DNA from: Dehalococcoidia bacterium
GTDB lineage: Bacteria > Chloroflexota > Dehalococcoidia > SM23-28-2 > HRBIN24
Direction of reading: 5' to 3'
Assembly: GCA_025062275.1 (NCBI GenBank)
Contig: JANXAP010000005.1
Span: 1 to 56,719, forward strand
Length of the DNA: 56,719 nucleotides
This document shows, piece after piece, positions 43,235 through 43,602 of this stretch. Made by a program: the position numbers and the translations under genes. Under the pieces are notes generated by a model. It was not told the DNA's origin. It did no database searches and saw only the letters and a program-made list of their open reading frames with translations. Position 1 is the first letter of the stretch, and each line of letters starts with the position of its first letter.

Positions 43235-43274
43235 GGCCCCCACCTCACACATCGGAGCACAGCAGGCGTGCCCA

Positions 43275-43303
43275 TTTTAGACCCCAGGGGACAGGGCGTC
43301 CAG
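43275..43303 (-). promoter_or_regulatory. Promoter of the small membrane protein gene
   Basis: Minus strand: TGGACG (43298-43303), 17 nt, TAAAAT (43275-43280). Leader about 34 nt with a good ribosome site. Confidence 0.5.
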
Positions 43304-43319
43304 AGGTGACCATAACTTC

Positions 43320-43361
43320 AAGGCCCCCGGTGCTACCGGGGGCCTTTCGCCTTCTTTTTTT
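43320..43361 (+). terminator. Perfect 12-bp hairpin followed by T run, facing plus
   Basis: AAGGCCCCCGGT-GCT-ACCGGGGGCCTT, then 7 nt, then TTTTTTTT (43354-43361). The T run is on the plus side although both flanking genes are on minus. It may end an unseen plus-strand RNA, or the stem may serve as a U-less terminator for the minus-strand small ORF. Confidence 0.45.
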
Positions 43362-43458
43362 AGCTTGCCCCGTCCTTCGCCCCATTCTGGGCAGCATGCC
43401 TGCCCATGCAACCCGCCCTGTCACGCACCGGGAGCGCGGATCCCTGTCCGGGGCGAAT

Positions 43459-43551
43459 TCAGGGGCCGCAGCCTGGCTGCCCCGTGGTGCCACCACGGGG
43501 CCTTGCTAGGTCCACCTGGAGGACCGCGACCAGCTGATGGAGCCGGGTCAC
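43459..43551 (-). CDS. Candidate small protein/leader peptide, 30 codons
   Basis: This ORF is too short for usual gene finding, but its signals are the best in the window. A TTGACA-17-TATATA promoter is followed after about 16 nt by AAGGAGG, a 7-nt spacer and a GTG start. The product begins MTRLHQLVAVLQVDLARPRG and ends TTGQPGCGP. The middle of the ORF is itself a strong hairpin (CCCCGTGG / CCACGGGG), and more hairpins follow, as in leader peptides that sense translation. The LV...VDLAR...C pattern loosely recalls Cys-containing actinobacterial leader peptides, a weak resemblance. No obvious biosynthetic gene follows. It may equally be a genuine small protein. Confidence 0.5.
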   Translation of the reverse strand: MTRLHQLVAVLQVDLARPRGGTTGQPGCGP

Positions 43552-43573
43552 GGTCTCACCTCCTTCCGCCCCC

Positions 43574-43602
43574 TATATATCCCACCTCGACCAGGCTGTC
43601 AA
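43574..43602 (-). promoter_or_regulatory. Consensus-like promoter of the small ORF/structured RNA
   Basis: Minus strand: TTGACA (43597-43602), exactly 17 nt, TATATA (43574-43579), only 29 nt downstream of the ftsK stop. Among the strongest cores in the window. Confidence 0.7.

Follow-up and report, generated by a model that had tools for sequence, protein, structure and literature searches.

A conserved minus-strand gene of Chloroflexota with a mini-open reading frame and a structured RNA: a candidate dual-function RNA

Which product is encoded by a short hairpin-rich locus behind a near-consensus promoter? The locus lies in a 56,719-nucleotide stretch of DNA from a Dehalococcoidia bacterium (contig JANXAP010000005.1, positions 1 to 56,719; the window), for which an earlier note had described a promoter, a Shine–Dalgarno sequence, a 30-codon open reading frame (ORF) opening with GTG and several hairpins at 43450–43602, and had left three options: a leader peptide with attenuation, a small protein or a structured RNA. 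All of these elements are present on the minus strand (43602–43459). They lie within a self-contained gene of approximately 250 nt that runs on past the flagged coordinates, from about 43567 to 43320. Among the three options, the small conserved peptide and the structured RNA both held, in one stand-alone gene, but attenuation of a downstream gene was not supported. The comparisons described below make it almost certain that this gene exists and conserves both products, the peptide and the RNA structure. The best explanation of the locus as a whole appears to be a stand-alone dual-function RNA gene conserved within Chloroflexota, a reading to which we assign a probability of roughly one half.

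Based on a DNA search in relatives, followed by searches of the class and the phylum with sequence profiles made from the first and later copies (R1 to R3), we gathered 68 distinct homologous copies from many genera of Chloroflexota, mainly Dehalococcoidia. In the DNA search, true matches came from two genomes within the same family and from several within the same order. At E-values up to 1e-4, profile R3 matched 87 of the 393 genomes of the class and 40 of 400 sampled across the phylum, counts that are probably lower bounds because the filters were strict. A pattern search returned six carriers with names; the titles of five read Dehalococcoidia, Dehalococcoidales or Dehalococcoides, and that of the sixth Chloroflexi. 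A pattern scan of viral contigs for the element gave no match. Some weak profile matches, several of them within genes (e.g. L049, L054, L056, L088, L108, L110 and L115), looked like chance and were rejected. The small genome G171 holds two diverged copies (L064 and L087).

The conserved peptide core comprises approximately 14 residues with the pattern [R/K]-[L/I]-H-x-L-[F/Y]-[G/A]-V-[L/W]-[Q/E]-V-[D/E], and 14 codons is the commonest ORF length among the copies. In distant members the N-terminus is variable (e.g. MNRKEPLALYGVLQVDR in L082) and the end motif is kept. The 30-codon frame reported previously does exist, but its conservation is limited to codons 1–14, the other 16, which pass through the hairpin, not being kept past the closest relatives; in the order of the window, the frame continues for a few to approximately 24 codons past the core, and this tail is not conserved. 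In the reading frame, the proportions of synonymous (pS) and nonsynonymous (pN) differences were 0.749 and 0.248, respectively, and ratios of 1.1 and 2.1 were obtained in the other two forward frames. Differences at the three codon positions numbered 7733, 8014 and 12432, being highest at the third. The profile searches themselves were codon-blind, but the copies were picked from the profile matches by a regular expression in which the codons for H, Q, V and D were partly fixed, and conservation at these residues is therefore inflated. The residue following the Asp is mixed (R in 23, S in 15 and K in 7 of the 68 copies). These results show that the mini-ORF, as expected of the coding part of a dual-function small RNA (sRNA), is under coding constraint; it looks translated, with its peptide under purifying selection. 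Owing to its length, the peptide is overlooked by gene callers.

The RNA behind the ORF core was conserved as structure. At the position equivalent to hairpin P2 of the window, 58 of the 68 copies had a stem of 6 bp or longer, compared with 5.9 in shuffles, and the sequence of this stem took 31 different forms. In 48 of these 58, the gap between the Asp codon and P2 was 6–8 nt. A consensus of nine Dehalococcoidales-type copies contained P2, a compound stem P3 enclosing P4 and P5, and the terminator, a total of 46 pairs. Of these pairs, 21 had changed on both sides and 93.7 % of cells were paired; none of 500 shuffles reached any of these measures, and slid controls collapsed. Within the same alignment, the terminator helix showed both-side changes in 8 of its 12 pairs, and its T tract, clear in relatives, is weak in the window. 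For 16 copies from the order of the window, which align less well than the nine-copy set, the covariation score was 0.312 compared with 0.187 (0/500 shuffles). The folding of the region is also beyond chance: the 261-nt RNA of the window folded with z = −4.88, and none of 200 shuffles folded equally well. Taken together, these data show conserved RNA structure outside the ORF, the second property expected of a dual-function sRNA. The earlier note had proposed comparing the conservation of the peptide with that of the base pairs in relatives, the loss of both being one outcome that would count against it; both proved to be conserved. Two further structural candidates were rejected: a hairpin of the window fold that would sequester the Shine–Dalgarno sequence (GGAGG 43563–43559 with CCTCC 43522–43518) is lost where Trp replaces Leu, and a −1 frameshift reading of the P2 spacing was dropped, as no slippery heptamer was seen. 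On the plus strand of the window, a stem that resembles an intrinsic terminator and carries a tail of seven T residues (43338–43354) may end plus-strand transcripts. The features of the unit are listed in Table 1.

Table 1. Features of the minus-strand unit in the window
Feature	Position	Strand	Remarks
Sigma-70 type promoter	43574..43602	−	−35 TTGACA 43602–43597, 17-nt spacer, −10 TATATA 43579–43574
Shine–Dalgarno GGAGG	43559..43563	−	7-nt spacer to GTG; GGAGG or variant in homologues
Mini-ORF, 30 aa, VTRLHQLVAVLQVDLARPRGGTTGQPGCGP	43459..43551	−	GTG 43551–43549, TGA 43461–43459
Conserved core of mini-ORF, codons 1–14, VTRLHQLVAVLQVD	43551–43510	−	Kept in 68 copies with third-position drift
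Asp codon GAC, last of the peptide core	43510..43512	−	68 copies: D 62, E 6
Hairpin P2, GCCCCGTGGT/ACCACGGGGC, 10 bp with 3-nt loop	43501–43492/43488–43479	−	Starts 8 nt past the Asp codon; compensatory changes in relatives
Compound stem P3	43367..43466	−	Helices 43466–43462/43371–43367 and 43457–43449/43384–43376; window fold, consensus and covariation of relatives
Two hairpins inside P3 (window)	43442–43436/43416–43410 and 43406–43400/43394–43388	−	Window fold
Terminator-type hairpin AAGGCCCCCGGT/ACCGGGGGCCTT, end of unit	43320..43346	−	Covarying helix in relatives

The gene also appears to be independent of its neighbours. Of 67 homologues, 43 had an exact TTGACA at the corresponding position (1.1 in shuffles), so that the promoter recurs in place, and transcription of the unit is expected to start near 43567; judged by sequence alone, the third property of a dual-function sRNA, an independent transcript with its own promoter and terminator, is present as well. 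The downstream genes are unrelated and belong to ten families (DUF72, HAD, TatD, pyridine nucleotide oxidoreductase, DUF362, UPF0182, M16, RNase PH, SIR2 and UvrB), with uvrB and tatD lying convergent to the element on the opposite strand. Upstream, an ftsK-type frame is frequent in the window's order, but not elsewhere. In the window, the unit is located between ftsK (ends 43631) and a gene on the same strand for a 137-aa protein (43252–42839) that gave no Pfam match. A promoter-like sequence, TGGACG-17-TAAAAT, is present on the minus strand just upstream of the latter gene (43274–43302), which may thus have its own promoter.

Searches of known families gave no relative of the element. No Rfam family matched the window element or 17 loci carrying it, low-scoring matches in the region (STnc380, F6, mmgR and others) being far under the gathering scores and therefore rejected, and no NCBIfam family matched the longer peptides. 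The literature searches likewise turned up no account of this element, of its peptide or of a similar regulatory RNA in Chloroflexota.

We then weighed the dual-function reading against other explanations of the same data. The locus may simply be the mRNA of a small protein of 14 residues, in which the RNA structure merely stabilizes or terminates the transcript. Purifying selection on the peptide and the prevalence of 14-codon ORFs are consistent with this explanation, as is the existence of a short form without P3 (L078–L080), but the narrow distance between P2 and the Asp codon and the covarying P3, P4 and P5 exceed the needs of a plain mRNA, and we consider it rather unlikely. A purely non-coding RNA with an incidental ORF is extremely improbable: although the structure is strong and one copy (L004) has no standard start codon, amino acids stay while third codon positions vary. 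A diverged housekeeping RNA (6S, transfer-messenger RNA (tmRNA), RNase P RNA or signal recognition particle (SRP) RNA) is very improbable. The element had no Rfam match, including none to the tmRNA model RF00023 or the 6S model RF00013, and ARAGORN found no tmRNA in the window. The true tmRNA was located at G000:C19:16399-16752, and, among seven genomes tested, tmRNA and RNase P RNA were located elsewhere in all seven and SRP RNA in six. A role as a 6S analogue would agree with the failure of the Rfam 6S model to match anything in 16 genomes of the order (G000–G015), while control genomes were matched; however, 6S RNAs are not known to carry a conserved ORF.

Another explanation, close to the attenuation proposed in the earlier note, is a cis-acting leader in which termination, and hence the expression of the next gene, depends on whether the peptide is translated. 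The layout is that of a leader peptide, the ORF being followed by a hairpin and then by a terminator, and the next gene is on the same strand in the window and in L002 and L003, and is SIR2 in one genus. Nevertheless, no conserved regulated gene lies directly downstream: the next gene is unrelated between lineages and convergent in several (L004, L034 and L140), and that of the window is preceded by the promoter-like site mentioned above. Because the downstream gene depends on lineage, and uvrB and tatD are convergent, the element does not act as an attenuator of a fixed operon, and a cis-acting leader is improbable in general. Some observations weigh against the dual-function reading. The genus of L078–L080 lacks P3, its short form consisting of the mini-ORF, P2 and the terminator; since this form precedes a SIR2 gene, cis action is conceivable there. 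In addition, L004 has CTG in place of a start codon, and some near-complete genomes gave no match.

Within the dual-function reading, a ribosome-controlled and trans-acting mechanism is a tentative proposal, to which we give slightly less than even odds. The usual downstream footprint of a ribosome is approximately 15 nt. Because the distance from the Asp codon's first base to P2 is approximately 10 nt, which places P2 within this footprint, a ribosome reaching or pausing at the G-V-[L/W]-Q-V-D motif would abut P2, and one paused with this codon in its P site would keep P2 open. The position of the ribosome would then decide the folding of P2 and, thereby, of the P3 domain, and the RNA in either state, folded or not, would act in trans, perhaps together with the peptide, as suggested by the lack of a fixed gene following the element. 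A more specific form of this proposal, a phylum-wide riboregulator in which a structured RNA acting in trans has its fold switched by a self-encoded nascent-chain sensor of approximately 14 residues, is speculative and somewhat doubtful. With the peptide and the RNA structure of a single gene both held over a long distance, and with the hairpin kept within a narrow range of distances from the last conserved codon, the locus allows a direct test of whether the position of a ribosome controls an RNA. It would also add one new family of RNAs and one of peptides to those available for annotation.

Several known systems resemble the element in part. The dual-function sRNAs SgrS/SgrT, RNAIII/hld and VcdRP (PMC8672173) likewise combine a short ORF and a structured RNA in a single stand-alone transcript; no sequence relation to them is known, and in the present gene a peptide core of approximately 14 aa is kept across the phylum, with P2 spaced to the last conserved codon. 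The rnTrpL/peTrpL system of Sinorhizobium meliloti (PMC7298713), a transcription-attenuator leader with action in trans, shares a short leader-type ORF, a hairpin behind it and a terminator, and in the present gene, too, peptide and RNA could both act in trans; the present element, however, lacks runs of Trp or other regulatory codons, is not followed by a biosynthetic operon and forms a sequence family of its own. Stalling on ErmBL occurs when Asp10 occupies the ribosomal P site, the critical residues being Arg7 and Val9–Lys11 (PMC4935803). Val-Asp stands at the end of the critical stretch there, as it does in the core described here; in contrast, the residue after the Asp is mixed in our copies and no erm gene was seen nearby. 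Arrest at a defined codon is a candidate property, the pertinent observations being the conserved end motif and the P2 spacing, and the likeness to ErmBL, confined to the Val-Asp end, serves as a lead, not as membership. The yfr6/Downstream-peptide RNA of cyanobacteria (PMC2864571) is also an RNA of approximately 250 nt with a short conserved ORF, but its structured part is located in the 5′ untranslated region, whereas that of the present element is behind the ORF.
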